From Glaciimonas soli (GTDB lineage: Bacteria > Pseudomonadota > Gammaproteobacteria > Burkholderiales > Burkholderiaceae_D), in the NCBI RefSeq assembly GCF_009497155.1, contig NZ_WINI01000001.1, positions 1 to 64,000 on the forward strand: a DNA stretch of 64,000 nt. The letters run 5' to 3'. This document shows, piece after piece, positions 1-20,033 of the stretch (the first letter of the stretch is position 1; every line of letters begins with the position of its first letter). Made by a program: the position numbers and the translations under genes. The notes beneath the pieces are model-generated. The model ran no database searches. It had not been told where the DNA came from and worked only from the letters and a program-made list of their open reading frames with translations.

Positions 1-6
1 ACCCAG

Positions 7-41
7 AAAACCCCATCCTCTTAACCGAGGGTGGGGTTTTT
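7..41. terminator. Bidirectional intrinsic terminator
   Basis: A 14-bp stem (positions 7-20 against 27-40, one G-T pair) closes a six-base loop, with an A-run on the left and a T-run on the right. It could end transcription arriving from either side. The gene it serves to the left lies outside the window. Confidence 0.75.
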
Positions 42-418
42 GCTTTGCATAAACGCTTGGTGCGAACGATTGGCAGTGCCGCTTGTTAAGCAAGCTCAGG
101 CTGCGCCGACGTCAACAGCGCGATCAACCAATCAACGCGCTGACAGATGCTGTGCGGCTGACCATAAGCTTACCGCTGGCGCGATGCAGAGCCCTGCGCA
201 TTTCCGGCTCCCATTTCTCCTGCCCCCGTAGTTATCGGCAATAAAAAAGCCAGCTGATTAGGCTGGCTTCTTAAACAGGACTTATCAATTGCATATCCAC
301 GCTCGACGAAAAGGCCAAAGGTCCAAGCCCCGTTACAGGCTTGATCCATGCCGCAGGCATCACCAGCCCAAATACTAAAGGTCGGCCTGTGCGGCACGGT
401 ACTTGTGCTTGAGGAGAG
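42..418. other. Gene-free stretch downstream of the uxaA remnant, with a second terminator
   Basis: I see no supportable gene here. The open frames on both strands are short and match nothing I recognise. A clear hairpin at 247-269 (AAGCCAGC against GCTGGCTT, flanked by A and T runs) looks like the intrinsic terminator of the leftward uxaA remnant that ends at 419. Because the neighbouring genes carry deletions, this stretch may also contain unrecognisable gene remains. Confidence 0.5.
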
Positions 419-1045
419 TTACATCACCGCACCAATTTGCCAAGGTACGAATTCATTTTGTCCGTAACCGTGGACTTCACTCTTCGTGCGTGTGCCGGAC
501 GCGACGGCTATGATCATGTGGAAAATCTGCTCACCGACGGTCTCGACATCGGTGATGCCGTCGGCGATGCCGCCGCAGTTGAGATCCATGTCTTCTTCCT
601 GGCGCTGCCACAATCCTGAATTGGTTGCTAGTTTCAGCGACGGAGAGGGCGCACAGCCATAGGCCGAACCGCGTCCGGTAGTAAAACAGATCACGTTGGC
701 ACCGCCGGCAACCTGCCCAGTGGCGGAAACCGGATCGTAGCCGGGCGTATCCATGAACGTCAGGCCTTTGGCGGTGACCGATGCGCCATATTCGACTACA
801 TCTACCAGGTTGGTGCTGCCTGATTTGGCCACTGCACCCAACGATTTTTCCAAGATGGTGGTTAAGCCGCCAGCCTTGTTGCCGGCCGATGGATTATTGT
901 TCATCTCCGCATTTTGGCGCACGCAGTATTCTTCCCACCAGCGAACACGAGCTAACAGTTTGTTGCCGATTTCAGGGGTCGTGGCGCGGCGCGTGAGCAA
1001 ATGTTCGGCGCCGTAGATCTCGGGCGTTTCCGACAGAATCGCACT
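419..1045 (-). pseudogene. uxaA: Altronate dehydratase (UxaA/GarD family), C-terminal remnant
   Basis: Only about the last 205 residues of a protein that is normally near 500 residues remain. The visible conserved blocks are typical of the UxaA/GarD C-terminal domain: SETPEIYGAEHLLTRRA, MNNNPSAGNKAGGLTTILEK, FMDTPGYDPVSATGQVAGGA, FTTGRGSAYGCAPSPSLKLA and the ending FVPWQIGAVM. An intact enzyme dehydrates D-altronate to 2-dehydro-3-deoxygluconate. Homology stops abruptly near 1045, where the oppositely oriented permease remnant begins, so the N-terminal half and the gene start are deleted. The nearby reductase and KDG-kinase genes belong to the same hexuronate pathway, which supports the assignment. 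There is no plausible start for the fragment, so I treat it as dead. Confidence 0.85.
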
Positions 1046-1049
1046 GAAT

Positions 1050-1436
1050 GTGAAGCTCTGTATGCAAGGGTATCCATTTCTGCATGGTCTGATGCTGTCG
1101 TTTGAACCATTGGACGGTGGCGCATGGTCGAATTACATCAAGTTTTTCAATACCGACAATCTATACCTTACGATACCAGGGCTAGCGATGGCGTTCTGTC
1201 TGTCGTTCGTGCAGGCCTTCTCGGTCTTTCCGTCCGCGGTATTGTTAGGCTCGCCCGCCGGGCCAACCCGGGTCATTTCGATTGCCGCCTATGAGGCTGC
1301 ATTCGAAAATTACGATTATCCGATGGCCTCTACGATTGCCATGATTATGGGCATGGTGCAACTTGCGGTGGTCGCTTTTGTACTTGGGCTGCGCAGCATG
1401 GTGTATCGCGGGCCAGTTACTGGCGGAAAGGGGTAA
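1050..1436 (+). pseudogene. ABC transporter permease (PotB-like), internally deleted
   Basis: The frame encodes about 128 residues against roughly 280-300 for an intact binding-protein-dependent permease. The first 40 residues resemble the start of such a permease (YPFLHGLMLSF, then NYIKFF). After about residue 45 it jumps directly to a C-terminal block (PGLAMAFCLSFVQAFSVFPS, then VISIAAYEAAF and YRGPVTGGKG). The middle membrane helices and the EAA loop that contacts the ATPase are missing, and the extreme N-terminus also appears cut at the uxaA junction. The frame is still open, so a short protein could be made, but it could not form a working channel. It ends three bases before the intact partner permease at 1440. 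Confidence 0.8.
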
Positions 1437-1439
1437 ATC

Positions 1440-2339
1440 ATGACGAAATCAATATCGCCAACTGCGATCATGCCGATGTCTGCTTCTGCTTCGCCAAAGC
1501 CGCACGTTAATTGGTGGAGCCGTATCTGGAGTGGCCTGGTGATCGGCTTCATGACATTCTTCTTGCTCAATGTCGGCTTGATGATTGCTTCGGTAGCCAC
1601 CAACTCGATCGCTCGCAGCTGGTTCGGCACCTGGCTGCCTGACGGTTTTACTTTTGAATGGTACGCATCCGCCTGGAATGAGTTCCAGCTTGGTGACGTA
1701 TTGCTGGTAACGGTAGAAGTAGTGCTGGCCGTTGTGGTGTTGGCATTGGCAATTGGCGTGCCAGCCGCATACGCATTGGCGCGCAGAGATTTTCGTGGAA
1801 AGCGTTTGTTGACCATGTTGTTTCTGCTGCCGCTGATGATACCGCCGATCACCTACGGTATTCCACTGGCCACGCTGATGTACCAAATGCATCTTGCGGG
1901 AACCTTGTTTGGTGTAGTGATCGCCAATTTGTTGCCGGCCTTGCCGTTCGTTATTCTGGTTATGACACCGTTTATCGAACAGATCGACCCGAATCTGGAA
2001 TCGGCTGCACGCGTGTTCGGTGCGTCGACCTGGAAAATGTTCCGTCATGTGTTAGTGCCGCTGTTGGCACCGGGCATCCTTGCTGCGTCGTTGCTGGTAC
2101 TGGTGCGCACCATCGCGATGTTCGAGCTGACCTTTATGACGGCCGGATCGGATACCCAGACGCTGGTCGTGGCGCTGTACTACTCAGTGTTCGCAGCCGG
2201 GGTGCGGGCTCCACAATCGATCGATGCGATGGCAATGGTCTATATGATCATCACGCTGGTGTGGCTGTTGATTGCGATGCGTTTTGTCAGTCCGACACAA
2301 CTTGTCTCCAGGGTACGTGAGCACCCGCAGGGCGCTTAA
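1440..2339 (+). CDS. ABC transporter permease (PotC-like)
   Basis: An intact inner-membrane permease of 299 residues of the binding-protein-dependent type. It has about six hydrophobic segments (near residues 35-60, 95-115, 125-150, 160-180, 220-240 and 265-285). A partly conserved EAA loop (residues about 180-200: LESAARVFGASTWKMFRHVL) would contact the ATPase. In an intact operon it would pair with the permease just upstream, which is deleted, and no ATPase or periplasmic binding protein gene is visible in the window. The substrate is unknown; the neighbouring hexuronate/polyol genes suggest a sugar acid or polyol. It is followed within ten bases by the dehydrogenase gene, suggesting one transcript. 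The gene is intact but probably orphaned. Confidence 0.85.
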   Translation: MTKSISPTAIMPMSASASPKPHVNWWSRIWSGLVIGFMTFFLLNVGLMIASVATNSIARSWFGTWLPDGFTFEWYASAWNEFQLGDVLLVTVEVVLAVVVLALAIGVPAAYALARRDFRGKRLLTMLFLLPLMIPPITYGIPLATLMYQMHLAGTLFGVVIANLLPALPFVILVMTPFIEQIDPNLESAARVFGASTWKMFRHVLVPLLAPGILAASLLVLVRTIAMFELTFMTAGSDTQTLVVALYYSVFAAGVRAPQSIDAMAMVYMIITLVWLLIAMRFVSPTQLVSRVREHPQGA

Positions 2340-2348
2340 GGAGATGTG

Positions 2349-3824
2349 ATGAGACTTTCGAATACAGCTTTGGCATCGATGGGTGCGCATCAAATTGTAA
2401 TCGTGCCTAAGTATGACCGCTATCAGCTATCCCCAGGCATCGTGCATTTAGGCTTGGGGGCCTTCCATCGCGCACATGCGGCGGTATACACGGATCACGC
2501 AATTGCTGCTGGCGACCAGCGCTGGGGGATAGTTGGTGTATCCCTGCGTCAGGCGGATACCCGTGATGCGCTTGCGCCGCAAGACAATCTGTACACAGTG
2601 GTTGTGCGTGACGGCGGTGGCGAGCGATTGCATGTCATCGGCGCATTGATCGCGTCGCTGTTGGCACCGGAGAACCCGCACGCGGTGCTGGCCGCGATGG
2701 CCGATCCGCGTTGCCACGTTGTCAGTCTGACGGTGACTGAAAAGGGTTATTGCCACGATCCGGCGACACGTGCCTTGCGTCTGAATCACCCCGATATTGC
2801 ACATGATTTGACGCATCCCGATGTACCGCGTTCTGCCATCGGTTTCATCGTGCGTGCATTGGCGCTACGCCAAAAGGCGGGGCTGCCGCCGTTCACCGTG
2901 CTGTCGTGCGACAACCTGCCGTCGAATGGGTTGACTACACGTGGCTTGGTGCTGGCGTTCGCCGCAGCCATTGACCCTGGACTGGCGCATTGGATAGCTG
3001 AGCATGGTGCCTTTCCTAACGCGATGGTGGATCGCATCGTGCCAAAGACTACCGAGGATGACCGCGCCAGCGTTGCGATTCGCCTTGGTGCCGACGATGC
3101 ATGGCCGGTGATGACCGAACCGTTCAGCCAGTGGGTGATTGAGAACCGGTTTGTCGGACCACGGCCGCGCTGGGAGGATGCCGGAGCGACCATCGTAGCG
3201 GAGGTTGAGCCATACGAAAACGCCAAACTGCGCATGCTCAATGGCACGCATTCCAGTCTCGCGTATCTGGGTTCCGTGATTGGCTATGTAACGGTCGATG
3301 AGGCCATCGCCGATACACGATTAGCCAATTTTATTGCTGCCATGATGGGTGACGAGATTGAGCCGACGTTGTCGCGTCCCGGTCTGGCTGTGTATCGCGC
3401 GCAATTGCTGGCGCGCTACCGCAATCCGGCGCTCAAGCACAAATTGCAGCAAATTGCGATGGACGGGTCGCAGAAATTGCCGCAACGCTTGCTCGGCACT
3501 ATTCGCGATCGTTTGCTGGCTGGTGCGTCCTGCGACCGGCTTTGTTTTGCCGTCGCCGGCTGGTTTCGCTATCTGGTCGGCAAGGACGAGTCCGGCCTTG
3601 CATATCCAATTTCCGATCCTCTCGCCGAAACGTTACATGCCGCTGCGACCAGCTCTCTGAACGCGGCGGAGCAAGTTGTTGCCTTGCTGGCTGTGCGTGA
3701 AGTGTTTGGCGATGACTTGCCCCGTAATCAGCAGTTCGTTTTCACATTGACTCAACACCTGGAAAATATCGGTAAGTACGGAGTCGTTGAGGCGATGAGT
3801 GCTTTGGAATCCAAAAAAGCGTGA
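2349..3824 (+). CDS. Mannitol dehydrogenase family oxidoreductase (fructuronate reductase-like)
   Basis: A long-chain polyol/uronate dehydrogenase of 491 residues, full length for the family. Expected landmarks are present: the N-terminal nucleotide-binding region (HLGLGAFHRAHAAVY), SLTVTEKGYC, the SCDNLPSNG block, FPNAMVDRIVP, and the catalytic-domain motif around AKLRMLNGTHSSLAYLG, where Lys and Asn-His contribute to catalysis. The family covers mannitol, arabinitol, fructuronate and tagaturonate substrates. The adjacent uxaA remnant and KDG kinase favour an NAD-dependent uronate reductase, but sequence reading alone cannot fix the substrate. I chose the second of two start codons (ATG at 2349) because AAGGAG lies five bases upstream; a GTG sits just before it. 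Confidence 0.85.
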   Translation: MRLSNTALASMGAHQIVIVPKYDRYQLSPGIVHLGLGAFHRAHAAVYTDHAIAAGDQRWGIVGVSLRQADTRDALAPQDNLYTVVVRDGGGERLHVIGALIASLLAPENPHAVLAAMADPRCHVVSLTVTEKGYCHDPATRALRLNHPDIAHDLTHPDVPRSAIGFIVRALALRQKAGLPPFTVLSCDNLPSNGLTTRGLVLAFAAAIDPGLAHWIAEHGAFPNAMVDRIVPKTTEDDRASVAIRLGADDAWPVMTEPFSQWVIENRFVGPRPRWEDAGATIVAEVEPYENAKLRMLNGTHSSLAYLGSVIGYVTVDEAIADTRLANFIAAMMGDEIEPTLSRPGLAVYRAQLLARYRNPALKHKLQQIAMDGSQKLPQRLLGTIRDRLLAGASCDRLCFAVAGWFRYLVGKDESGLAYPISDPLAETLHAAATSSLNAAEQVVALLAVREVFGDDLPRNQQFVFTLTQHLENIGKYGVVEAMSALESKKA

Positions 3825-3884
3825 GCACGTGAGACAGCGCTTCAGCATGTATGAAGCGCTGTCGCATGAAAAATAGAGGAGGGG

Positions 3885-4850
3885 ATGATGGGCATTGACA
3901 AGCGTTTTGACATTGTCGGATTGGGAGAGCCGATGATCGAATTCAATGAGACGGGGACCGCTCTGTACCGACAAGGGTTTGGTGGTGATACTGCCAATTT
4001 TGCGATTGCTGCGGCAAGGCAGGGGGCAAACGTCGCATACTACACGCGCCTCGGTGATGATCGCTTCGGCCGCATGTTTCTCGATTTATGGGCCAAGGAA
4101 AGGATTGATACGTCAGCAGTCGGGATTGATCAGAATGCGCATACCGGCGTGTACTTCGTCACGCATGGTACGGATGGACATCAATTTGAATACTTGCGCG
4201 CTGGTTCCGCCGCTAGTCGCATGACCGTTGATGATTTGCCGCTGAATATGCTTCGTGATACGCGCTTCCTGCATGTATCGGGCATCAGTCAAGCCATTAG
4301 CCCAACTGCCTGCGATGCGGTGGGCGCTGCGGTGGCAACTGCCAGCGCAGCTGGCGCATCTATTACCTACGACCCGAATCTACGCTTGCGATTGTGGTCG
4401 CTGGCAAAGGCGAAAGCCACAATTGAAGCCACGATCCCGCACATTGATATTTTCTTGCCTAGTCTTGATGAAGCGTTGATTCTGGCCGATGCCGATAACC
4501 GCGATGACGTATTTGCGTGGTGCGCTCGGCACGGCGCGAAGAACGTGGTGCTCAAATGCGGCGCAGAAGGTGCGTGGATCTGGCAAGAAAGTGATGGCGT
4601 GCCGCGACATGTGCCGGGGTTCGCAGTACAACCTATCGATGCCACCGGCGCCGGCGACTGCTTTGACGGCAGCCTGGTTGCGCGTCTTGCCGTCGGTGAA
4701 AGTTTACTGGACGCAGTGCGTTACGCCAACGTGGCTGCTGCAATTTCGACGACCGGATACGGGGCCATCGCGCCGATTCCGCATCAGGCCGATGTTCTCA
4801 TTAAGTTGGTAAATAAATTGGCAGTGACAATGACGGAGGCCGCCACTTGA
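3885..4850 (+). CDS. kdgK: PfkB-family sugar kinase, probable 2-dehydro-3-deoxygluconokinase
   Basis: A ribokinase/PfkB-fold kinase of 321 residues. The N-terminal block (GLGEPMIEF, GGDTANFAIAAARQG, YYTRLGDDRFG) and the ATP-binding/anion-hole signature DATGAGDCFDG near residues 252-262 are complete, with the catalytic Asp in that motif. YDPNLRLRLW is the form typical of KDG kinases. It would phosphorylate 2-dehydro-3-deoxygluconate to KDPG in the cytoplasm, the step after UxaA/UxuA, which fits the uxaA remnant and reductase nearby. It has a strong GAGGAGGGG ribosome site just before the start and follows the dehydrogenase after 60 bases. Substrate assignment is inferred from family and context. 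Confidence 0.8.
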   Translation: MMGIDKRFDIVGLGEPMIEFNETGTALYRQGFGGDTANFAIAAARQGANVAYYTRLGDDRFGRMFLDLWAKERIDTSAVGIDQNAHTGVYFVTHGTDGHQFEYLRAGSAASRMTVDDLPLNMLRDTRFLHVSGISQAISPTACDAVGAAVATASAAGASITYDPNLRLRLWSLAKAKATIEATIPHIDIFLPSLDEALILADADNRDDVFAWCARHGAKNVVLKCGAEGAWIWQESDGVPRHVPGFAVQPIDATGAGDCFDGSLVARLAVGESLLDAVRYANVAAAISTTGYGAIAPIPHQADVLIKLVNKLAVTMTEAAT

Positions 4851-5063
4851 TCACCACGCCTGGCAGAGCCAGTTAACTATCGCGGAAATATCCGCAATCC
4901 CCTTCGGGCGCTAATGCGGCGCCAGTGACAATGAGTAGTGGTTGGTTTAACCACCCTCAGGGGCAGACTTGCGCCCGCATCACACGGAAAGTGTGTCGAG
5001 CGTCGTACCTAGTAGCACCGTAGTTTCCATGAAATATTCAATAACTTATAAACAGGGGATGAA

Positions 5064-5848
5064 ATGAAGACGAAAAGCAGTTTGATGATAGCTGGAGTGA
5101 TGGCAATGTCGATCGGGGCAGTGTGCGATGTTTATGCGCAAAGCAGCGTACCGGTTGTTGCGGCGGCAGTTCCGACGTTATTCCGCTATACACGGTAACG
5201 CCGCTACAAGGCATGCAGAACACGCTAGCCCAGTTGGGATCGAGTGCAACGGTAAATCTGGTCGTCGTTGCCCCAGATAACAGCAATCTTGCAGCCGTGG
5301 TCGATGCTGCGAGCAAGGCCGATGTTGTGGTCATCATGGCTGGCACGCTTGCAGAGGAGGGACAGGACCGCCTGAGTATCTCGCTGGATGGAGGCGACTA
5401 CATGAACACCACTGGCACGTACATCAACCAAAACCAGAACCAGAACGCTATGATAACCACAGTTCTCGCGGCCAATCCGACGAAGACCGTTGTCGTTCTA
5501 AAGGACAACGCGTCAGTGCTGTTGCCATGGATCGATCAGGTTCCTGCGGTACTGGAAGCGTGGTTCCCCGGTCAGGAAGATGGCAACATTGTCGCTAATT
5601 TGCTATTCGGTACGGTCAATCCGTCGGGTAAGCTGCCGGTCACGTTCCCGAAGAACGATGGCGACTGGCCGGCAAATACGCCCACACAGTTTCCAGGCAT
5701 TATGGTCAATGGCAAACCGACGGTGACCTACTCCGAAGGCTTGAATATCGTCCAGCAATGGAACATCGCCAATGATCAGTACAAGGTCCTTGTTGGTAAT
5801 TCGTCGAGAAATCTGAATCTCAACAGCACGATCATCGTCAGTAAGTAA
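5064..5848 (+). pseudogene. Secreted glycoside hydrolase family 3 (beta-glucosidase) remnant with two deletions
   Basis: A signal peptide starting at 5064 (MKTKSSLMIAGVMAMSIGAV, then the VYAQS cleavage-type end) runs into a stop at 5196. In another frame, from about 5160, the C-terminal GH3 domain begins (GGSSDVIPLYTVTPLQGMQ, with DVVVIMAGTLAEEGQDR, VLEAWFPGQEDGNIVANLLF and GKLPVTFPK). So the catalytic TIM-barrel domain, several hundred residues, is gone and the join is out of frame. A second, in-frame join at about 5735 takes VTYSEGL straight to the end of the fibronectin-like domain (QQWNIANDQYKVLVGNSSR), removing the usual GYGLSYT block. No working enzyme can be made. The gene probably acted in periplasmic or extracellular sugar release before decay. 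Confidence 0.85.
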
Positions 5849-6273
5849 GGCGAGGTGATGCAGGACCAGCGAATTTGCTGGTTCGGCACCGCCAGGTCGA
5901 TCGGCAGGTGGCCATAGATCTGTCAATCTTGGCGTTCGGTATGGGGTAGTGCGATTATCTGCACCGCGCCGGGTGCGCCGATTGGGTTTGGCGCATCGAT
6001 TGGCCTTGTTAGTTCTGTGTTGTGCTTGCCGCGTGAGCAGCATTAGTGAAAGACGCCCTTGGGTAACCCCCAGTTCTCCCATTATATTTAATGGGATTTT
6101 TTTTGGGAGCGATGGCGCGACACTTCGATGCCGTGCCCAAAATTTATTAGCAAAATAGCGGGCACTGCATCATTCGTTCTAATTTTTGCGCTTGCTACCG
6201 ATCATCAAAAAGTCGTTACGGACTTAGCGGCAGTGTTTAATTTGAAACCATTTTATTGAAATGACCTATTAGC
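5849..6273. other. Gene-free stretch with one strong terminator
   Basis: I see no supportable gene. An almost ideal rightward terminator lies at 6077-6104: stem TCCCATTA against TAATGGGA, four-base loop, then eight T. It sits about 230 bases after the GH3 remnant, so it may have belonged to a gene now lost between them, or it ends read-through from the remnant. Confidence 0.5.
6077..6104 (+). terminator. Intrinsic terminator
   Basis: A perfect 8-bp stem (6077-6084 with 6089-6096), loop TATT, followed by eight T (6097-6104). Rightward orientation. Confidence 0.85.
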
Positions 6274-7512
6274 TCAATTTTCAACTGCCGCATCGCGGTT
6301 AGCGTAATTTACCGATGTATCGGCGGGGTGTTCCAAGTGCTGTAGAAGCTTGCTGACCATTATGATCACAGTCAATCCTACGATGACGAAGAAAATGGCC
6401 ATGGGAGTGAGGCTATGAATAGACACGAATCCGGCCAATCCCATCATGGCCGACGAAACGAGCAGCAGGGCAAATCCGAGGATGGCACTAGTCAATCCTG
6501 CAATGTGAGGAAAAATCGAATTTCCCTTTGCCATCAGGGTCGGATACATGGCGCCGGCGCAAAATCCCATGAGCAGAACAGGGGTAGTCAGCGTCCATAC
6601 GCGCAGTCCGACTGTCACGGAAAGAATAAGCATGACGAACGCGGCGCCAGTCATGACGCGTGCGCCGATCCGAAGGCGCTGTTCCGGAGTAGGCAGGCGT
6701 GGATGATGTATACGATTAGAAATGCCGCCGAGAAAATACATCAATCCGATTGCAAGAGCCAGATAGCCAAAATAGGTCGGTGGCTTGTGCAAAGTGTTTT
6801 GCACCATGAATGGGCCAACAATGTTGAACACCAAAAGAATGCTGTAGCACAGTCCCTGCGAAAGAAAACAGCTACGGAAAACTGGACTGACGAGCACCAT
6901 GCGCGCATTCTTCACCAGCGTTTTCATATTCAGATGCACCGGTTGCTGTAGCGTTTCGCGGTAACGCCAAAGTACTGCCCACATCACAAATGAATAGACC
7001 AGCAGGAAAATCAGGCAGGAACGCCAGCCGAACATTGCTTGCAGATGCGCACCAATGACCGGAGCCACAATCGGCGCCAATCCCCACGCCGTCGCCATGT
7101 AAGTAAAGGCATGCATCAAGGCCTGACCAGAAAACGAGTCAGTGATGATGGCCTTGGCAAGCAAATTGGTCGCAGCGATGCCAAAACCTTGCAGGCAGCG
7201 TGCAAATACGAACGTTTCCAGATTGCTTGCCGCGAGCGAGAGCAGGCAGCCGCACGTAAAGACTGCCAATCCCAGTGCAAGAATTGGTTTGCGTCCGTAT
7301 GCATCTGCGAGAGGGCCGAAGACCAGTTGGCCGAACGCATAGGCCATCAGATAGCTGGTCACGCTCAATTGAATGGCTTGCGGCGAAGCCTGAAAGAAAT
7401 GCGCCATCGCGGGCAATGCAGGTACATAGATGTCGATTGCAAGCTGCCCGGCGGAAGCAAAGGCGCAAATGAGAAATAATAAAAAGCGGGGGTGATTGGT
7501 GGCGTTACGCAT
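6274..7512 (-). CDS. MFS transporter, Bcr/CflA-like drug efflux family
   Basis: An inner-membrane protein of about 412 residues with twelve predicted hydrophobic helices. The first loop has the antiporter A-like motif GPLADAYGRKPIL, and the N-terminus has the IDIYVPALPAM block typical of the Bcr/CflA multidrug efflux branch. That branch exports hydrophobic drugs or metabolites in exchange for protons. I chose the ATG at 7512 because family members start a few residues before the first helix; the frame stays open upstream but that extension is not membrane-protein-like. No strong ribosome site is visible. The gene is divergent from the YddG-like exporter. The substrate is unknown. Confidence 0.85.
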   Translation of the reverse strand: MRNATNHPRFLLFLICAFASAGQLAIDIYVPALPAMAHFFQASPQAIQLSVTSYLMAYAFGQLVFGPLADAYGRKPILALGLAVFTCGCLLSLAASNLETFVFARCLQGFGIAATNLLAKAIITDSFSGQALMHAFTYMATAWGLAPIVAPVIGAHLQAMFGWRSCLIFLLVYSFVMWAVLWRYRETLQQPVHLNMKTLVKNARMVLVSPVFRSCFLSQGLCYSILLVFNIVGPFMVQNTLHKPPTYFGYLALAIGLMYFLGGISNRIHHPRLPTPEQRLRIGARVMTGAAFVMLILSVTVGLRVWTLTTPVLLMGFCAGAMYPTLMAKGNSIFPHIAGLTSAILGFALLLVSSAMMGLAGFVSIHSLTPMAIFFVIVGLTVIIMVSKLLQHLEHPADTSVNYANRDAAVEN

Positions 7513-7842
7513 AGAAGGGTTTTGTCGCAATACGAAGATGGGGACTAGCGGAATTTTAAAAAAAGAGGTGCCGCATGCTTGAGGCAGAATAGGCCGCAAT
7601 TCTGCCACACTTAGACAATTTGTGAATTTGATGACGACGGTGAGGCGGGGAAGTTGAATCTTCATCTGGGTCCAGGTAATACTCGCGCTACCATGAATGC
7701 CATCTTTTTTGAGTGAATTTGATGTGCCCGACATCAGCAGTTCCTAAACGTTTACTTTGACTTGTCTCAGTGGGCAGGCTACCTTGACGGCATAAAGGAA
7801 GGGGCAAGAACCCTTCGCAACCCGCAAACTTGAAGAGCATCA
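7513..7842. other. Divergent intergenic region between two transporter genes
   Basis: This 330-bp gap must hold the promoters of the leftward MFS gene and the rightward YddG-like gene. A small hairpin (GAAGGG at 7798 with CCCTTC at 7811) lies about 26 bases before the yddG start and could affect its translation. I see no clear operator. Confidence 0.4.
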
Positions 7843-8763
7843 ATGAATAATAGGAAAGCTACTCTTATCGGACTCGTCGCGGTGCTTCTTTGGAGCGCAA
7901 TCGTTGGATTGATACGCGGCGTCAGTGAGCATCTCGGTCCCACAGGAGGCGCTGCGGCGATTTACAGTGTCGCCTCGGTGTTTCTGCTGTTCTCGGTCGG
8001 GTTCCCGAAGCTCAGCACCTTTCCTAAACGATATTTGTTGTGGGGAAGTCTTTTGTTCGTTGCTTACGAGCTATGCCTTTCTCTGTCCATCGGTTACGCA
8101 AATACAGGCAGACAAGCAATTGAAGTCGGCATGGTCAATTATCTGTGGCCGACATTCACGCTCATTTCGGCAATTGCCTTCAGCAACCAGAGGGCAAACC
8201 TTTTGGTCGTGCCTGGTTTCGTGCTCTCGTTGCTGGGAATTTGCTGGGTATTGGGTGGCAATCAAGGGTTGGACTTGGCCGGTATGCTGGTCAACGTTCA
8301 GGACAACCCACTCAGCTACGGACTGGCTTTGGCCGGCGCAATCATCTGGGCTGCGTATTGCACTGTGACGACCAACATCGCGCGAGGTAAAAACGGCGTT
8401 ACGCCGTTCTTCATGCTGGTGGCGTTGGTTCTTTGGGTGAAATTTTTCCTCGGAGATCACGGCCAGATGTCCTTTAGCGCGCCGGCAATCATCTATCTGT
8501 TGTTGGCCGCAGCGGCGATGGGGTTTGGCTACGCAGCATGGAACGTTGGCATTTTACATGGCAACGTCACTGTTCTGGCGGGAGCCTCGTACTTCATTCC
8601 CATCTTTTCGTCGGTGCTATCTGCGTTTTTGTTGCACGCACCTTTGCCAAGATCATTCTGGGTTGGTTCGTCCATGGTGTGCGCTGGTTCGATTCTCTGC
8701 TGCTTGGCCACGAGGACGAAAAAGTCACCGCCGAGTCAAAGAGATGTGGTCGCAAACAGCTAG
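7843..8763 (+). CDS. yddG: YddG-like aromatic amino acid/DMT exporter
   Basis: A drug/metabolite transporter superfamily protein of 306 residues with about ten hydrophobic helices in two repeats (first repeat from LIGLVAVLLWSAIVGLIRGV, second from ALAGAIIWAAYCTVT). The pattern VGMVNYLWPTFT and the segment MGFGYAAWNVGILHGNVTVL match the YddG subgroup, which exports aromatic amino acids and related metabolites. It acts in the inner membrane. Start ATG at 7843 has a GAAGAG ribosome site about seven bases upstream. It is a single gene between divergent and convergent neighbours. Confidence 0.85.
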   Translation: MNNRKATLIGLVAVLLWSAIVGLIRGVSEHLGPTGGAAAIYSVASVFLLFSVGFPKLSTFPKRYLLWGSLLFVAYELCLSLSIGYANTGRQAIEVGMVNYLWPTFTLISAIAFSNQRANLLVVPGFVLSLLGICWVLGGNQGLDLAGMLVNVQDNPLSYGLALAGAIIWAAYCTVTTNIARGKNGVTPFFMLVALVLWVKFFLGDHGQMSFSAPAIIYLLLAAAAMGFGYAAWNVGILHGNVTVLAGASYFIPIFSSVLSAFLLHAPLPRSFWVGSSMVCAGSILCCLATRTKKSPPSQRDVVANS

Positions 8764-8764
8764 T

Positions 8765-9235
8765 CTATTCTTTTCGTGAAAAAAATATTTTCACAAATCC
8801 CCAGATGGCAGCGATGATTACAAGGCCGCCTAGCTTTGTGTACCAAGTCGAAAACCATTGTGTATTCAAGCTCGTTAATTCTAAAGATGAATCATGGGAC
8901 ATAACGCTCCCTGGTCCAGCCTTAGATGACCAAAAATTGAGCGCAGGCCAAAAAAATAGCCAAAATAAAGCAAGAATGATAGGCCAAGTTTTCTTGAATC
9001 TTATTTGTTTATATTTATTTCCAAACCGTAAAATTGCGCCTGCAAGTACCGTAGTTACAATCCAGCCAATAATTATTTCGCCTCCAGTCGGCATGTCGAT
9101 GCCGAACCACGACGAGAACTGCCAAACAGAAAAAAACATAAAAGCAGCCACGCACGCAATAACAACTTTTACAAAACTATTGTTGCCGCCATTTTCATTT
9201 CCGGAATTTACACTCACATCATCTCCATTGATCAT
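8765..9235 (-). CDS. Small membrane protein of unknown function
   Basis: A 156-residue protein I do not recognise. It has a polar N-terminus rich in Asn/Gly/Ser (residues 1-20), then three hydrophobic segments (about 22-42, 54-70 and 84-101), a polar loop of about 30 residues and a fourth segment near the C-terminus (about 133-150) ending in FFSRKE. It converges with the yddG-like gene, with one base between the stops. The composition is AT-richer than its left neighbour, like the island that starts 250 bases away, so it may be acquired DNA, but it lies outside the 51-bp repeats. Confidence 0.6.
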   Translation of the reverse strand: MINGDDVSVNSGNENGGNNSFVKVVIACVAAFMFFSVWQFSSWFGIDMPTGGEIIIGWIVTTVLAGAILRFGNKYKQIRFKKTWPIILALFWLFFWPALNFWSSKAGPGSVMSHDSSLELTSLNTQWFSTWYTKLGGLVIIAAIWGFVKIFFSRKE

Positions 9236-9434
9236 CTTGCATCTTTAAATAATAACAGAAGGACAATGAAGCACTAGCTGTTAAATATTGCAGTAGGGGG
9301 AATGATGTTGATGGTGTGTAGCCAGAAATGGCGGCGTAATATTTGCAGAGTCGGATTGATACCGACGCAGACTATATTTCAGAGTATTGAGTAGGCGTAA
9401 AAAAAAACCACGTGAGAGCAGGCTAATTTGAATA

Positions 9435-9455
9435 ATATTAGACACTGTCTAATAT
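9435..9455. repeat. Perfect 10-bp inverted repeat beside the left att-like repeat
   Basis: ATATTAGACA and TGTCTAATAT are perfect inverted arms around a single C. It lies 31 bases outside the left copy of the tRNA repeat and is followed by an imperfect TACAG/CTGTA pair. It could be a dimeric-protein site (regulator or recombination factor) or chance in AT-rich DNA. Confidence 0.5.
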
Positions 9456-9486
9456 ACAGTGCTGTATGTATACGCAGCTTGCGCAG

Positions 9487-9537
9487 TAAGTCTTTGATTC
9501 TATTGGTCGGGACGGAGTGATTCGAACACTCGACCCC
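9487..9537 (+). repeat. Left att-like direct repeat (copy of the tRNA-Pro 3' end)
   Basis: These 51 bases are identical to 14289-14339. They carry the last 34 bases of tRNA-Pro(GGG), including the encoded CCA, plus 17 bases downstream of it. Weaker similarity continues about 12 bases into the anticodon arm (TGCACC..ATGC). The 5' half of a tRNA is absent, so this is not a second tRNA gene. Confidence 0.85.
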
Positions 9538-9693
9538 ATGCACCTGATGCGGGAGTTTATAAGTCCGTACCGCCCGTAAACATTGGCTTTCCACCTGGAT
9601 CGTATAATATCCAGCGGTTCTTCATGAGCCTGTATCTCGCATGAAATAGTGACGTACTTCGCCAGATTATACAAATTTAGGTTTATTCCTGAT

Positions 9694-9933
9694 TTAATTC
9701 GATGAGTCGGGAATTTGTATTTTTTCGCGTAAAACGACGACCCATATTCGGCTAGAAAGATCCGTCAGTGCATCCTCTTCAAAAATAACAGTCATCCGCA
9801 TGCGTTTACCGTGTGCATCGGCTTTAATGAAATGGACGCTCCTTTCAGTCAAACTGGCAATTTTCGCATTTTGGCACTTCGATACCGTTTCGAAATAAGG
9901 CGCCCATTTCATTAAAACCACTGAGGAATGCAT
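9694..9933 (-). CDS. Small hypothetical protein, doubtful
   Basis: A 79-residue frame from ATG 9933 (six residues more if a TTG at 9951 is used). It has no recognisable domain; the sequence is mixed alpha/beta-looking (RMRMTVIFEEDALTDLSSRI, then WVVVLREKIQ). No good ribosome site is visible. It is the only frame of any length in the left part of the island and is read opposite to the two large genes. It may be a small island gene or the C-terminal scrap of a deleted one. Confidence 0.3.
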   Translation of the reverse strand: MHSSVVLMKWAPYFETVSKCQNAKIASLTERSVHFIKADAHGKRMRMTVIFEEDALTDLSSRIWVVVLREKIQIPDSSN

Positions 9934-10096
9934 CGCTTTTCGCCGAATCAAATCAGCAATTCGTCGTTAATATTGGTGGGGCCGGATCGACTAAAAACTG
10001 ATTGCTACCAAAAGGGCGAGCTAAGCGTCGTGCCAACTCTGCGCCCCTGTGTTTCGATTTATCAATGCAAGCAAAGAGGGAAATTGAACTCGGACT

Positions 10097-11440
10097 ATGA
10101 ATAAAGAAAATAATGTTTTAAGTGTGAATCAAAAAAATGTCGTGCACTCATCCAACTCTGAAATGCAGGAAAAAATTGTACAGCCTACGTCTACATGGTT
10201 CAGTCAGATAAAAGCAGCGATTTTTCGGACGCATACCAAAACTGATGAGCAAGGTGAGAGGCCTCCCAGAGATGTTGAAATACACTCGGCCGAATCGCAC
10301 GGCGGGGTAAAAAGTGATCCACTTGAAGAAATGAAGCGGATGAAGGAGTTTTATAAAGAATTTGTCGCGATAGGAAAAGACACGCTTGAAGTTGGATGGA
10401 AACTTGCACCATTGGCGTTTTTGCCGACGGGCTTGCTTCTATGGGTTTACCTCCGATCAATACATTGGACGGGACTGTTTCAAGATTCGGCGATGGCGGT
10501 AAGTGGCCTGGTATTTTTATTTGTAGCGGCACTGTTTTTGGCATTTGCAGTTTTACTACAGTTCGTTGCCCCGTCCGTAATTCTGATATGCACCGTCTCT
10601 GGCTATGCTCAAAATCGCTTTATGCCGAAATATGTTGCGAATATTTATCGCTGGGCATTGGTGGGTTGGCTCATTGGAGTTAGCTTGATCATCTGGTGGG
10701 ACAATAGTAACGGCAAATGGATAGCGTTGGCATTGCCAATTGTGACGTCGTTGATTTATTTGTTTGTATATATGCGGAAAGAGCCAACTTTGTTGCCGGG
10801 CAAGTCAACATTTGCGTGGTTTATGAAAAATGCTGGATGGTCTCTTGCGGCGACATTCACGGTTGCTTCCACCAGTTTACCATTGGTAATCGGCTTACAA
10901 ATCGCGGGTCATGTCCCTAATATCGAAGAAGGTTGGCAAACTTGGGTTGCGATGGGAGTCTGCATCGGGATCTCGGCAATCAGTCTCGTCCCTGGATTGA
11001 TGTATTTAGGCGCGAGAACTTCTAGTATGGGTGCTTATCGCCCAATGAAATTTGCAATTGGCGGAGTTGTTTTTATTTCATACGTAGTCATCAGCAGCGT
11101 TGTTTTTTTTGCCCCGGTGTCATCGACAGTGCTGCGCTTATCCGGTATTTACAGCAATGAGCTTCAGACGTTTCAGGTTCGTGAACCTACGCTTACACCT
11201 GTGTTTACCGCAGTGGGCTTGAATGTCACCAAGAAAGAAGATTTAACTTTGGTCCGCGCTTATCTTCGGTATGGATTTGGAGGGTATAAGCTTCTGTGTG
11301 CTAATAAGTTTAACCCGGCTACTGTTTCTCAGGAAGCAGTGAAGAAAGCTCGACTTGATAAAAAGCCGGACCCGGGCATCGTTGGCGGGAGCCACTGCGC
11401 TCCGGCCTATCCCAACGAGGTTCGGGAGATAAGAGAATAG
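10097..11440 (+). CDS. Multi-pass membrane protein of unknown function (island gene 1)
   Basis: A 447-residue protein I do not recognise. Residues 1-100 are polar and probably cytoplasmic, ending in a charged helix (PLEEMKRMKEFYKEFVAIGK). Seven or so hydrophobic segments follow, at about 102-122, 133-172 (long, perhaps two helices), 185-203, 208-228, 245-268, 283-305 and 322-345. The last 100 residues are soluble, with an ordered-looking block (FQVREPTLTPVFTAVGLNVT; two Cys at about 397 and 432). It starts at ATG 10097 with only a weak ribosome site. It precedes the TPR protein in the same direction with a 576-bp gap. The protein shows no transporter motif I know. Confidence 0.7.
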   Translation: MNKENNVLSVNQKNVVHSSNSEMQEKIVQPTSTWFSQIKAAIFRTHTKTDEQGERPPRDVEIHSAESHGGVKSDPLEEMKRMKEFYKEFVAIGKDTLEVGWKLAPLAFLPTGLLLWVYLRSIHWTGLFQDSAMAVSGLVFLFVAALFLAFAVLLQFVAPSVILICTVSGYAQNRFMPKYVANIYRWALVGWLIGVSLIIWWDNSNGKWIALALPIVTSLIYLFVYMRKEPTLLPGKSTFAWFMKNAGWSLAATFTVASTSLPLVIGLQIAGHVPNIEEGWQTWVAMGVCIGISAISLVPGLMYLGARTSSMGAYRPMKFAIGGVVFISYVVISSVVFFAPVSSTVLRLSGIYSNELQTFQVREPTLTPVFTAVGLNVTKKEDLTLVRAYLRYGFGGYKLLCANKFNPATVSQEAVKKARLDKKPDPGIVGGSHCAPAYPNEVREIRE

Positions 11441-12016
11441 TCTTTCCAGGACTACAGGCTTAGGTGCAGCGGTAGGCGTTAGGAGGCGAATTCCGGTGTA
11501 AGCATTCTTAGTGGAAAATGAGATGAAATGGAAAAGGCCTACAAGTCAAGAGCTGTAATCCTTTGATTTTATTGGCCAGGTATTCTAGGTTGCTATGCCG
11601 ATACGGCGGAAGTCTGGCAAGCAGGTTGACTAAGCCAATTTTGCGGAGAACAATAAGATATTGACTTGCGGGAACGTTGACCAAGTCAGGCTAAGAGTCT
11701 GCGCTCGCTTGCCGCCGCTATTTTTTTTTGCGCTAAATCGATCGATGCGGAGAAAATGTTTAGCAGAATACGAGCGAACTGATATATGGCGTTCATTTGC
11801 ATACCGAAGAAAAAATAAAAAAATCTCCCATAAAGTTGGTTTTTTGTTTTCCCTGCATCAGTTGTCACGTCAACGTGCATCGGCCCTATAAGGCAAATAT
11901 ATCTTGCGCTAGGTGCTAATTGGGCAACACCGTTGTCACTAGCCGCTAGAATCAATCCGCAGCAAGAACGTCGTTTGGCGAGGAGTACCGCCGTTTTAAC
12001 TTGAGAGGGGATTACT
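11441..12016. other. Long non-coding gap between the two island genes
   Basis: 576 bases with no convincing gene; short open frames here lack ribosome sites and coding character. The stretch is AT-rich, with A/T homopolymers around 11720 and 11810-11850. The downstream gene probably has its own promoter here. GAGAGGGG at 12003-12010 is the ribosome site of the next gene. Confidence 0.5.
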
Positions 12017-13960
12017 TTGAATGATGCGAGCAAAGATGTGCCTGTTTCCCTCGTGGCGTCGGTGGCAGGAAGGGATGATTCAAGCTTTGAAGTTACCCAA
12101 AAATTTCAAGTTCGTCAGGTGCCGGATGATGCTAAGGAATACTATATTCGTTTTCGGATAAGTACGTTGAAGCGTTGTCGGGAACAATTAGGCATTCTGG
12201 AAAATGCAGGATTTCCCTATGGCGAGTTATGTCTGGCGATAGCATCAATTACTCTTGGAGCGGCATTAGGCGCGTGGGCCGGGGGAGTGAAACTAGAAGC
12301 TAAATTTACGTCTGGATTTTTCTATATTGCATTACCATGCATTGCAGTCGGCACCTTCATTTTGTACGTATTTCTGAGACATTCTTCTGTCGTAGATGCT
12401 AAGAAAATCGCGAAGAACGTCCTTGGTGATCTTCCCTTAATTGATTCTCATACGGAGCCAAATCAAGATTTTTCTAAAATTGCAACATCCATGCAAGATG
12501 ATGCGTCCACTCTGGGCACCGTGGAAAAGCCCATTTCAACATTTGAAATAACAGAACCGGCAGCAGACAAAGGGGGCTTCGATTTTTCAGATCCAAAAGT
12601 GAGTTGGAACCAATTCGATTTTAATACGGCATATTTTCTGCAAATCAATCAGGAAAGTGGCAAAGCCGATTTAGTTGATCAAGTTTTTCAGCAAAGCCCG
12701 CTGGCCGAAGATCCGCATGAAGTACTTAAATGGTCAGGTTGGAAGCTGTACTGCAAATTGGAATATGGTATGTCTGGGCAATTTGATGCGTTAGAAGTTC
12801 TTGCGAAGGATAATCCTGGTATTCATGATTTTGCGGCCCACTTAGGTCGGATTTACCGTAAATATGGCGATAATAAACAAGCTGCAGTTTGGTTTGAATG
12901 CGCTGCGGACAGCTGTCAGATTAAGGCAGTGTCCCTTAGATTACTTGGTGATGCTGCCGAGGCGTCATTGATCAGCGGACAAAAGGACCGTGCAAATTCA
13001 TTGGCTAATCGTATTCGAGAATATCAGGCGAATGATAGTGACTTAGACCGGATTAAGTTGACGATAGAACGTAGGCTTTTGGAAATTGGGAAGGATGACG
13101 AGAGGTCGATTGGTATTTTAGAGAGGCTACTTGAATTAGATCCGACGGATGATAATTTGCGATTCCTCTTAGGTTTCAAATATTCTGAAATGAACAGGCA
13201 TGCACTGGCTGCATTGCATTATGGGCGTATTGATATTCGAAAGCGAGGGGGGAGCTCTTGGAATAATTTAGGGGTTGCGTTGTATCACATTGGCATTCCG
13301 AGTCTTTCAATTGAGGCCTTCCTCGCCTCGTCGGCCCATGGGGAAACACTTGCGGCAAGTAATCTAGCGAATCAACTAATTCCTGCCGGATTTTTGCAAC
13401 AGGCCGAGGACCTCCTTGATAAGGCGTCGATAACTAAACCATATGACAATGCTGTCGATACTTCGCGTTCTACTCTGAATGAACGGAAGAGCGAAAGTCT
13501 GAAAAAACTTGAAGAATCAAACAAAAAAGTCACTTTTATTAGCGATTTTTATAAGCGATTTGGCGAGAGCATTGTCTTACCGCACCCCCCTATTCAGAAT
13601 GGTATTTTTGAAGGGCCAGAATTTTCAGTAACGGTATCAATCAACGGAGACCAATTTTTAGCTCATGGGAAGTACGTGGTACAAGCGAATAAATTGTTGG
13701 GGATTGTGTTCCCGGCCGGGGCACAACCAATACCTATCTCCTATGAAGTGACGATTAGAGGAAATTTGCTCGGTTCAACGATGGTCGGGAATATCAAGAA
13801 AATAGTCGTCGAAAGACCGCCGGTTGCTCCGACATTGCTTGACGTACAAAATGGAACTCCGTTACTTCTGATTCTAAGTCCTGATGGAAATAGCCTGCAC
13901 GCCATGGAAATTGAGCCGGAAGTGTCACCATCGATATTCTCGTTCGTTCGCCATCCATAG
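12017..13960 (+). CDS. Two-helix membrane protein with TPR-like repeats, unknown function (island gene 2)
   Basis: A 647-residue protein I do not recognise as a family. Residues 1-65 are soluble and include a helix (YIRFRISTLKRCREQLGIL); two hydrophobic helices follow at about 68-90 and 99-120, joined by a short loop. After a linker, residues about 195-470 form TPR-like helical repeats, for example YRKYGDNKQAAVWFECAADS, LERLLELDPTDDNLRFLLGF and SWNNLGVALYHIGIPSLSIE. The last 140 residues look beta-rich (FSVTVSINGDQFLAHGKYVV). It starts at TTG 12017, six bases after GAGAGGGG; the nearby ATG at 12021 is out of frame. The N-terminal two-helix module followed by a repeat scaffold suggests a membrane-anchored sensor or assembly platform, which is inference only. 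Confidence 0.75.
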   Translation: MNDASKDVPVSLVASVAGRDDSSFEVTQKFQVRQVPDDAKEYYIRFRISTLKRCREQLGILENAGFPYGELCLAIASITLGAALGAWAGGVKLEAKFTSGFFYIALPCIAVGTFILYVFLRHSSVVDAKKIAKNVLGDLPLIDSHTEPNQDFSKIATSMQDDASTLGTVEKPISTFEITEPAADKGGFDFSDPKVSWNQFDFNTAYFLQINQESGKADLVDQVFQQSPLAEDPHEVLKWSGWKLYCKLEYGMSGQFDALEVLAKDNPGIHDFAAHLGRIYRKYGDNKQAAVWFECAADSCQIKAVSLRLLGDAAEASLISGQKDRANSLANRIREYQANDSDLDRIKLTIERRLLEIGKDDERSIGILERLLELDPTDDNLRFLLGFKYSEMNRHALAALHYGRIDIRKRGGSSWNNLGVALYHIGIPSLSIEAFLASSAHGETLAASNLANQLIPAGFLQQAEDLLDKASITKPYDNAVDTSRSTLNERKSESLKKLEESNKKVTFISDFYKRFGESIVLPHPPIQNGIFEGPEFSVTVSINGDQFLAHGKYVVQANKLLGIVFPAGAQPIPISYEVTIRGNLLGSTMVGNIKKIVVERPPVAPTLLDVQNGTPLLLILSPDGNSLHAMEIEPEVSPSIFSFVRHP

Positions 13961-14107
13961 CGATATCAGCCGCCGACAGTATTGGTAACGGTATTTTTCA
14001 TGGTATTTGAATTTGCGGTGATCACCAGGGGCAATTAAATATTGGCATACTGGTTTAATTGATAATTGAGTGGGGATGGTCTGATGTCAGGCACACGCTA
14101 GTATTTA

Positions 14108-14148
14108 GAAGCAAAAAAAGCCTGCGTAAACGCGCGCTTTTTTGCTTC
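14108..14148 (+). terminator. Intrinsic terminator after the TPR gene
   Basis: GAAGCAAAAAAAGC pairs with GCTTTTTTGCTTC (one bulged A), with an inner GCG/CGC pair. The T-run lies in the right arm. Probably ends the island transcript; near-symmetric, so it could also act leftwards. Confidence 0.7.
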
Positions 14149-14168
14149 TTGGTTTAGTGTCGCTTGCC

Positions 14169-14291
14169 ATGTCAATGTATACGCCACGGACCGATGCCAC
14201 GACGATATATTTCAATCCGAATCCGACACCAATTCCTGCAGCGAATTTTCCGCAACAAATGAAGGGTGTTTACATACAGGTTTCACGCTAA
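14169..14291 (+). CDS. Short orphan frame ending exactly at the att repeat
   Basis: A 40-residue frame (MSMYTPRTDATTIYFNPNPT, then PIPAANFPQQMKGVYIQVSR) that stops with the TAA formed by the first bases of the right repeat. Codons favour G/C in the third position in the first part (ACG, CGG, ACC, GCC, ACG), unlike the two large island genes. No ribosome site is visible and the frame stays open a little upstream, so it may be the C-terminal scrap of a deleted gene rather than a real small protein. Confidence 0.25.
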   Translation: MSMYTPRTDATTIYFNPNPTPIPAANFPQQMKGVYIQVSR

Positions 14292-14339
14292 GTCTTTGAT
14301 TCTATTGGTCGGGACGGAGTGATTCGAACACTCGACCCC
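14289..14339 (+). repeat. Right att-like direct repeat (3' end of tRNA-Pro)
   Basis: Identical over 51 bases to 9487-9537. It overlaps the last 34 bases of the tRNA-Pro gene and 17 bases beyond its CCA end. Confidence 0.85.
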
Positions 14340-14382
14340 TTGCACCCCATGCAAGTACGCTACCAGGCTGCGCTACGCCCCG
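14306..14382 (-). tRNA. tRNA-Pro (anticodon GGG)
   Basis: A complete 77-base tRNA on the minus strand. The acceptor CGGGGCG pairs with CGTCCCG (one G-U), followed by A73 and an encoded CCA. TAGCGCAGCCTGGTAGCG forms the D arm, the anticodon stem is CTTGC/GCAAG with loop ATGGGGT (anticodon GGG, reading CCC/CCU), and GAGTG TTCGAAT CACTC forms the T arm. It matches the shape of the known bacterial tRNA-Pro(GGG). Its 3' half is duplicated at 9487-9537, marking it as the integration target of the island. Confidence 0.95.
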
Positions 14383-14556: not shown

Positions 14557-15678
14557 ATGTCTATAAAAATCAGCCAACAATTTGACGGTGGTGCCATCGA
14601 GGTTTTGCGCGCCGAACATCCACAACAAATCGAAGTCAATCTACGCCCAGATTCGCATGCGGATTTTACGCAGTGGTTTTATTTTCGCGTGCAAGGCGTG
14701 CGTGGCGAGGCTTGTCAGATACGTTTCATGAATGCTGGTAAAGCGACGTATGCAAAGGGTTGGAAAGACTACAGCGTTTGCGCTAGTTACGACCGTGAAA
14801 ACTGGTTTCGCGTGCCCACCAGTTTTGATGGTGAAGTGATGACGGTGACACACACGCCTGAGTCTGACAGCGTGTATTACGCTTATTTTGAGCCTTACAC
14901 TTGGGAGCGGCATTTGGCATTGATTGGCCGGGTAGGGCAGTCTGCTCAGGTGCAAGTGCAGGATTTGGGGAATACCGTTGACGGTCGTGATCTGAATTTA
15001 CTGGTGATTGGCAATCCTGCCGCGGCAAAAAAAGTATGGGTAATCGCACGCCAGCATCCGGGCGAGACGATGGCAGAATGGTTTGTCGAGGGTTTGGTGG
15101 ATGCGTTGCTTGATCGCGCCAATCCTATCGCTACGCGCCTGTTGCAGGAAGCGGTGTTTTATGTTGTGCCGAATATGAATCCGGATGGTTCTGTGCGCGG
15201 TAATTTGCGTACTAATGCCGCTGGTGCAAATTTGAATCGTGAATGGATGACGCCTTCGTTGGATAAAAGCCCGGAAGTATTTCACGTCAAAAATAAGATC
15301 CACGAAATTGGCTGCGACTTCTTTTTGGATGTACATGGAGATGAAGCCTTGCCTTATAACTTTGTGGCGGGCTCGGAAATGCTGAATGGATTCACTGCGG
15401 AGCAAGCAACGGAGCAGGATAAATTTATTGCTAACTTTAAAAATGCCAGTCCGGATTTCCAGAGTGAATTTGGTTATGCGGCGAGCAAATACAGTGCGGA
15501 TGTGTTAACGCTGGCTTCTAAATATATTGGCCATACATTTAAATGCCTGTCATTGACGCTGGAAATGCCGTTTAAAGACAATGCCAATTTACCGGATGCG
15601 CAAGTTGGCTGGAATGGCGCCCGTAGCGTGCGGCTGGGTGCGGCTAGTTTGCAGCCGATTTTGAAGGCGTTTGAATAA
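14557..15678 (+). CDS. M14-family zinc carboxypeptidase (cytosolic type)
   Basis: A 373-residue protein with an N-terminal beta-rich domain (residues 1-120) and a C-terminal M14 carboxypeptidase domain, the layout of the cytosolic carboxypeptidase branch. The zinc-binding signature HPGETMAEW is near residues 166-174 (His and Glu ligands), NMNPDG and NLNREW follow, and DVHGDE near residue 265 supplies the third ligand His. There is no signal peptide, so it acts in the cytoplasm, probably trimming C-terminal residues or amidated substrates; the natural substrate is unknown. It stands alone between the tRNA and a convergent gene. The start has no obvious ribosome site. Confidence 0.85.
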   Translation: MSIKISQQFDGGAIEVLRAEHPQQIEVNLRPDSHADFTQWFYFRVQGVRGEACQIRFMNAGKATYAKGWKDYSVCASYDRENWFRVPTSFDGEVMTVTHTPESDSVYYAYFEPYTWERHLALIGRVGQSAQVQVQDLGNTVDGRDLNLLVIGNPAAAKKVWVIARQHPGETMAEWFVEGLVDALLDRANPIATRLLQEAVFYVVPNMNPDGSVRGNLRTNAAGANLNREWMTPSLDKSPEVFHVKNKIHEIGCDFFLDVHGDEALPYNFVAGSEMLNGFTAEQATEQDKFIANFKNASPDFQSEFGYAASKYSADVLTLASKYIGHTFKCLSLTLEMPFKDNANLPDAQVGWNGARSVRLGAASLQPILKAFE

Positions 15679-19852: not shown

Positions 19853-20033
19853 GATTTCTCCTGAAGTGACGATGCGTGATATGCATATAACGGGTTTCAA
19901 CATACTCAAAGAATGTTGGTTGAATACCCCGGTGTTGCCGATTACTGATGCTAAATGCTTGATTCTTCTTTCCGCCCTCTCTCAAATACGTGCGAGAGAG
20001 GACAGGTTTGTGTCACAGCGCTGGCGTTCTTTC

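Follow-up and report, generated by a model that had tools for sequence, protein, structure and literature searches.

We analyzed positions 1 to 64,000 of contig NZ_WINI01000001.1 of Glaciimonas soli (the whole stretch, hereafter the window) and identified, beside a tRNA-Pro(GGG) gene, a genomic island that very probably arose by insertion at this tRNA followed by loss of the integrase. This conclusion is supported, at the level of sequence comparison, by an integrase-bearing prophage at the same tRNA in genome G004 of the same genus, by inner arms of the island that resemble the prophage ends in register, by an integrase fragment remaining at this tRNA in genome G002, and by relatives of the island's two cargo genes that lie near integrases. 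The element would be a non-autonomous island of 4.8 kb, similar to a cis-mobilizable element (CIME).

The island is bounded by a 51-bp direct repeat (9487-9537 and 14289-14339, identical at 51/51 bp), which is the longest exact direct repeat in the window, inverted repeats being outside this count. Besides this pair, repeated 20-mers were found at one place only, over about 25 bp from position 44800. A preliminary description of this DNA had reported identical 51-bp ends, the second being the 3' end of an intact tRNA-Pro(GGG), and this proved exact. ARAGORN placed the tRNA on the minus strand at 14306-14382 as the only tRNA of the window, and its RF00005 hit (14309-14382) was the sole Rfam match above the gathering score. 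Given this position, the right-hand copy consists of the 3' half of the tRNA and 17 bp beyond it. Looser similarity extends around the 51 bp (85% over 87 nt), and the GC content of the island is 44.8%, against 48.6% for the window. Two large plus-strand frames lie between the copies (10097-11440, 447 aa; 12017-13960, 647 aa). An 85-aa frame at 9694-9951 is probably no gene, with no match in the four libraries searched. The anticodon stem of the tRNA is GCA/TGC, while the other four members of the genus have GGA/TCC.

We compared this locus with relatives, using one genome per species. The M14 carboxypeptidase gene on the right of the tRNA was matched in 36 of 60 genomes searched, at least one of them weakly, and 17 stretches were taken from 15 genomes with a good match. 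The tRNA-Pro is present in all five genomes of the genus, that of G. soli included. In G004, about 40 kb separate a truncated copy of the tRNA end (L057:14949) from the intact tRNA-Pro (L059:18205), and the gene for a 364-aa tyrosine integrase (L057:15133-16227; Pfam E 8.5e-13) adjoins the truncated copy. Eight proteins of the G004 stretches, counting the integrase, were scanned against PHROGs, which showed portal, terminase, capsid, scaffold, sheath, and tape measure proteins; UmuD and UmuC are encoded close to the tRNA, and we take this prophage to be P2-like. The same prophage region encodes a 606-aa ATPase (L058:5298-7118) whose likeness to the MAD3, PtuA, and retron Eco8 effector models is far below their cut-offs. 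In G002, a degenerate copy and the tRNA-Pro enclose a 2.9-kb segment that keeps a fragment of a G004-type integrase (79% over 134 aa), along with an excisionase-like gene and a ParD-like antitoxin gene. No second copy of the tRNA-Pro end was seen in G001 or G003. In single-copy G003, a terminator with a GGCC hairpin lies flush with the tRNA repeat, whereas in G004 the matching hairpin lies on the outer side of the truncated copy, and the tRNA adjoins a different end. This displacement of the terminator is the pattern that insertion predicts.

The ends of the island resemble those of the G004 element in register. We compared arm identities with those at 20,000 random window positions, and additional left-arm comparisons with 5,000. 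The left inner arm (9585-9614) is identical to the left end of the G004 prophage at 21 of 30 positions, a value reached by none of the 20,000 random positions; blocks of 20, 40, and 60 nt gave 15, 26, and 31 identities, reached by 2, 0, and 3 random positions, respectively. G001, G002, and G004 have a tRNA-side end in common, which the right inner arm (14269-14288) matches at 18/20 (G002), 15/20 (G004), and 16/20 (G001) positions, with 1, 2, and 0 of 20,000 random positions doing as well. A profile of the tRNA-side ends of these three relatives scored highest in the window at the two repeat copies. One of these two top hits lies outside the island, at 9435-9469 (12.9 bits, E 0.0045 with the three-row profile), and stops 17 nt before the repeat, as the model position requires. 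This outer left flank is identical to the G002 tRNA-side end at 18/20 positions in register (0/20,000 random). The likeness suggests that the sequence further left may hold an older unit of this kind, which may include an orphan gene for a 156-aa protein.

No integrase gene accompanies these ends. Pfam Phage_integrase had no match in the window (C1:1-64000), all 13 matches of the genome lying elsewhere, and neither cargo gene matched an integrase or transfer model in Pfam, NCBIfam, or PHROGs. Searching the G. soli genome with the G004 integrase gave two matches only, of 30% and 36% over about 142 residues each, which by sequence is general catalytic-domain similarity. With this query, no close relative that could act in trans was found in the genome, so the island is likely immobile at present. 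The integrase had been described beforehand as either lost or acting in trans; the comparison with relatives supports the loss, and the G004-integrase query speaks against the second option.

We propose that a tyrosine integrase of the kind carried by the G004 prophage inserted the island at the 3' half of the tRNA-Pro(GGG). The element's own copy would have restored the tRNA, and the host 3' end would have been displaced to 9487. The integrase gene would since have gone, and we found no trace of it in the window.

The island itself is probably composite. We built attachment-end profiles of 8 and 18 rows from the ends in relatives, without window sequence; in the 18-row profile, two pairs of rows represent the same place of one genome (G002 and G027), and the 8-row profile has no such pair. 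Searched with nhmmer against the 64 kb, the profile recovered both known copies and a third site on the same strand, 11526-11580, between the two cargo genes (8 rows, E 8.5e-4, 15.3 bits; 18 rows, E 2.5e-3, 13.5 bits). The maxima in 20 shuffled windows, which preserve only base composition in blocks of 300, were 9.1 and 10.0 bits, respectively. As a background, we scanned 171 records (1.2 Mb, with some overlap and many tRNA ends) with the 8-row profile and obtained 45 distinct hits of at least 12.5 bits. Those of at least 32 bits (23 hits) read as tRNA-Pro ends, and among the 22 below 32 bits only 11526-11580 could not be read by eye as a tRNA end or tRNA terminator. A third copy between the genes argues for two units of one gene each, joined at this older attachment site, and we consider this arrangement somewhat better than an even prospect. 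Since the outer 51-bp pair is still perfect, the joined unit would have moved, or its ends been refreshed, later on. A further possible decayed copy at 9958-9991 (E 0.27 and 0.68) was not counted, and plain local alignment for decayed copies in 1-9486 stayed within shuffle scores. Another decayed fragment of a tRNA-Pro 3' end lies 1.14 Mb away (L124:6933-6979; G000:C1 about 1,154,930-1,154,980), next to what by eye resembles a gene cluster for a P450, a ferredoxin, and a dehydrogenase.

Both cargo genes have relatives in other elements. The 447-aa protein has four membrane segments by a plain hydropathy count, compared with seven in each of two relatives, and no Pfam, NCBIfam, or PADLOC model matched it at E up to 1. 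Matches were present in 3 of 300 genomes of the order: its own, G029 (45% identity over residues 80-446), and G547 (weak). In G029, a tRNA-Lys and a perfect 45-bp repeat of its 3' end bound a stretch of 5.9 kb that contains the gene, frames judged transposase-like by eye, and, adjoining the tRNA-Lys, an integrase gene. Of 147 stretches picked out by a pattern scan of genome contigs, one was confirmed to hold a relative; it comes from Burkholderia catarinensis (44%), and a type III methyltransferase/restriction pair is encoded about 1.5 kb away from this gene. Pattern scans of IMG/VR (28 and 67 stretches) confirmed no relative of either cargo protein. Structure prediction for the 447-aa protein together with one relative gave a mean predicted local distance difference test score (pLDDT) of 45.1, too poor for a fold search. 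We propose that this gene is an independent accessory gene.

The 647-aa protein has TPR repeats, matched by Pfam TPR models of which one is above its cut-off, and, by hydropathy only, two predicted membrane segments at residues 71-89 and 102-120. The preliminary description spoke of two large membrane genes; there are two large frames, and a many-pass membrane protein is predicted for the 447-aa product only. PHROGs gave phrog_31809 (function unknown, E 2.2e-9), the sole match of an island gene below E 0.001. Weak NCBIfam (best E 0.0082) and PADLOC (best E 0.04) matches were taken as chance or general TPR likeness, Pfam showed no DUF4062 match, and tblastn found no relative in plasmid records. 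Matches occurred in 6 of 385 family genomes (its own; G754, strong, 32% over residues 185-632; and four weak) and in 19 of 369 genomes of the class, counting its own, where the best match outside its own genome was in G287 (26%, residues 320-601). A four-protein profile matched at least 179 of 399 genomes of the order, and among the matches listed nearly all cover the TPR stretch only. Two of those listed are long, in G550 and G057, and align with residues 244-635 and 251-645 at 23%.

The N termini of these relatives differ. The G754 protein is 30% identical overall to the 647-aa protein and has the TPR and C-terminal part in common with it, and its own N terminus is a DUF4062 domain (Pfam 4.5e-27). 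Residues 1-190 of the G754 protein match the solved chain of KpSwz (E 6.7e-45) with an FTEK stretch aligned, the Glu of which would by its numbering be catalytic E97. The G754 gene lies 3.8 kb from a tyrosine integrase gene adjoining a tRNA-Arg. The preliminary description had suggested searching relatives for the cargo next to an integrase gene; each cargo gene has such a relative a few kilobases from an integrase, at another tRNA (G029 and G754). The N termini of the G550 and G057 proteins reach Pfam CAP12-PCTIR_TIR below cut-off (E 0.1 and 0.075), and a profile built from both retrieved no TIR chain from the PDB; these termini may, on weak evidence, be TIR-like. Two long relatives of the 647-aa protein, L162:8762-10702 and L163:8261-10306, have a common N-terminal domain, 47% identical between them, that may be TIR-like.

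Because the N terminus of the window protein has two membrane segments where G754 has DUF4062, we suggest a membrane-acting immune protein. The protein would sense infection via its TPR and C-terminal part, and its two transmembrane helices, which stand where the relative has an NADase domain, would act on the membrane. Tentatively, the family may consist of immune receptors spread by small tRNA islands, with a common TPR and C-terminal sensing part and exchangeable N-terminal effectors: a DUF4062 NADase (G754), possibly TIR-like domains (G550 and G057), and the two-helix effector of the window as a membrane-killing counterpart of the NADase. An anti-phage role of the cargo is conceivable, its probability somewhat short of even; a defense role is suggested by the relatives.

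Several observations weigh against this account of the island and its cargo. No empty site with the window's left neighbor was found in the 17 stretches or in the family and genus searches; G003 has a single copy of the tRNA end, but lacks matches to the genes on the left of the island. The preliminary description held that strains with the tRNA directly beside the gene at 8765-9235 would prove insertion; this arrangement was not found, and the left flank itself seems to be accessory. The left arm scored 17/30 with G027 (28 of 5,000 random positions), 13/30 with G002 (1,307), and 10/30 with G015 (4,157), and among the four truncated copies compared, only that of G004 gave a clear match (21/30, 0/5,000), so the left-arm evidence rests on G004. 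The right arm (14266-14288, flush) scored 9.9 bits with the tRNA-side profile, and 20 shuffled windows reached 11.2 and 11.0 bits; by score alone, this hit is not above chance. The score of the third copy is moderate, and decay has gone further in the inner copy than in the outer pair, while simple tandem accretion in place predicts otherwise; the joined unit would then have moved later or its outer pair have been refreshed. In its available text, PMC5704250 describes accretion in tandem without excluding that whole composites move. No known defense model in PADLOC is reached by either cargo gene, and the structure models of both cargo proteins are poor (mean pLDDT of 38.6 for the 647-aa protein alone). 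In about 33 kb of G754, the sole candidate for a second tRNA-Arg end (L130:4909-4931) has 19/23 bases (E 0.33), which leaves the far end of that element undefined.

An unlikely but credible alternative is that the island is the remnant of one P2-like prophage of the G004 family, deleted except for its two ends and two accessory genes. This reading has insertion and integrase loss in common with ours and differs in the origin of the cargo. Both inner arms do match the G004 prophage family, and phage structural genes and umuDC fill the G004 element. Against it, tblastx (E 0.01) found no coding similarity between the island and the G004 stretches, the two genes are separated by a probable third attachment copy, and the best cargo relatives are in other elements at other tRNAs. 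That the island is still mobilized in trans by another integrase of its own genome is improbable: the perfect outer repeats and the 13 Phage_integrase matches in the genome would fit, but the matches to the G004 integrase query show catalytic-domain likeness of a general kind. We regard an ancient duplication of the tRNA 3' end without site-specific recombination as very unlikely. No strain-level empty site contradicts it, yet it has no place for the displaced terminator of G004 or for the in-register arms of an integrase-bearing element, and the 51/51 identity includes 17 non-tRNA bases that vary between species. Insertion with subsequent integrase loss is our preferred explanation.

The features of the locus are collected in Table 1. 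The window begins at base 1 of its contig. None of the 447-aa, 647-aa, and 156-aa proteins had a match (E 1e-4) in any of the 17 stretches from relatives, and neither did the major facilitator superfamily and EamA-like genes on the left of the island. The 156-aa gene (8765-9235) was matched once, weakly (28%), among 391 other family genomes; its product, a membrane protein, matches phrog_4174 (PHROGs, function unknown, E 4.6e-6). The EamA-like gene (window 6274-8763) had one 25% match among the four other genus genomes, in G002, so the left flank may be accessory too.

Table 1. Features of the tRNA-Pro island and its surroundings (window coordinates)
Feature	Position	Strand	Evidence
156-aa membrane protein outside the repeats, accessory	8765..9235	-	matched in 2/392 family genomes
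Outer left flank, like tRNA-side end of the same element family	9435..9486	+	profile; in-register identity
Truncated tRNA-Pro 3' end, outer attachment repeat	9487..9537	+	51/51 vs 14289-14339
Left inner arm	9585..9614	+	in-register likeness to left end of G004 prophage
447-aa many-pass membrane protein, cargo	10097..11440	+	open frame; relatives in G029 and Burkholderia catarinensis
Probable decayed third tRNA-Pro 3' end with terminator flank, between genes	11526..11580	+	nhmmer
647-aa protein, cargo: 2 predicted transmembrane segments, TPR repeats, C-terminal part	12017..13960	+	open frame; closest relative in G754
Right inner arm	14269..14288	+	in-register likeness to tRNA-side ends of G002, G004, and G001
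Attachment repeat in/beside intact tRNA-Pro	14289..14339	+	51/51 vs 9487-9537
tRNA-Pro(GGG)	14306..14382	-	ARAGORN; Rfam RF00005
M14 carboxypeptidase gene, right-hand neighbor of tRNA	14557..15678	+	adjoins tRNA in relatives too

Like a tRNA-associated genomic island, the element is flanked by an intact tRNA on one side and by a direct repeat of the 3' part of that tRNA on the other. The G004 prophage uses the same attachment gene and has similar inner arms; it is about 40 kb long with integrase and structural genes, whereas the window island has none of these and no Pfam phage model. In the portions of PMC5704250 and PMC3146451 consulted, CIMEs have both attachment sites at a tRNA or similar gene, lack integration and transfer genes, occur in tandem arrangement, and are described as decayed integrative and conjugative elements or integrative and mobilizable elements; PMC3146451 also gives, in those portions, 15 ssrA islands without an integration module in Dehalococcoides. 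Compared with CIMEs as so described, the window island likewise has both tRNA repeats, no integrase or transfer gene match between them, and a probable tandem arrangement; unlike CIMEs, its ends match a prophage family taken as P2-like, and its mobilization is putative. The cargo recalls Swarozyc, a DUF4062 TIR-like NADase defense, in that DUF4062 is joined to the same TPR and C-terminal part in the G754 protein, the closest relative found for the 647-aa protein; unlike Swarozyc, the window protein lacks a DUF4062 match and is predicted to have two transmembrane segments. According to the available portion of a preprint (PMC13174449), DUF4062 proteins are TIR-like NADases, five of which were tested in Escherichia coli against phages, and protection by a Klebsiella DUF4062 protein needs the active site and an auxiliary domain. 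The auxiliary part is of TPR type in the window protein and helix-turn-helix/winged in KpSwz, as described there.

At this one tRNA, the genomes form a series in which integrase loss can be followed: an integrase-bearing prophage in G004, a broken one in G002, and ends and cargo only in the window. Two unnamed families of genes are connected with mobile islands by the analysis, which also offers a testable lead on how effectors may be swapped in TPR-based bacterial immunity.

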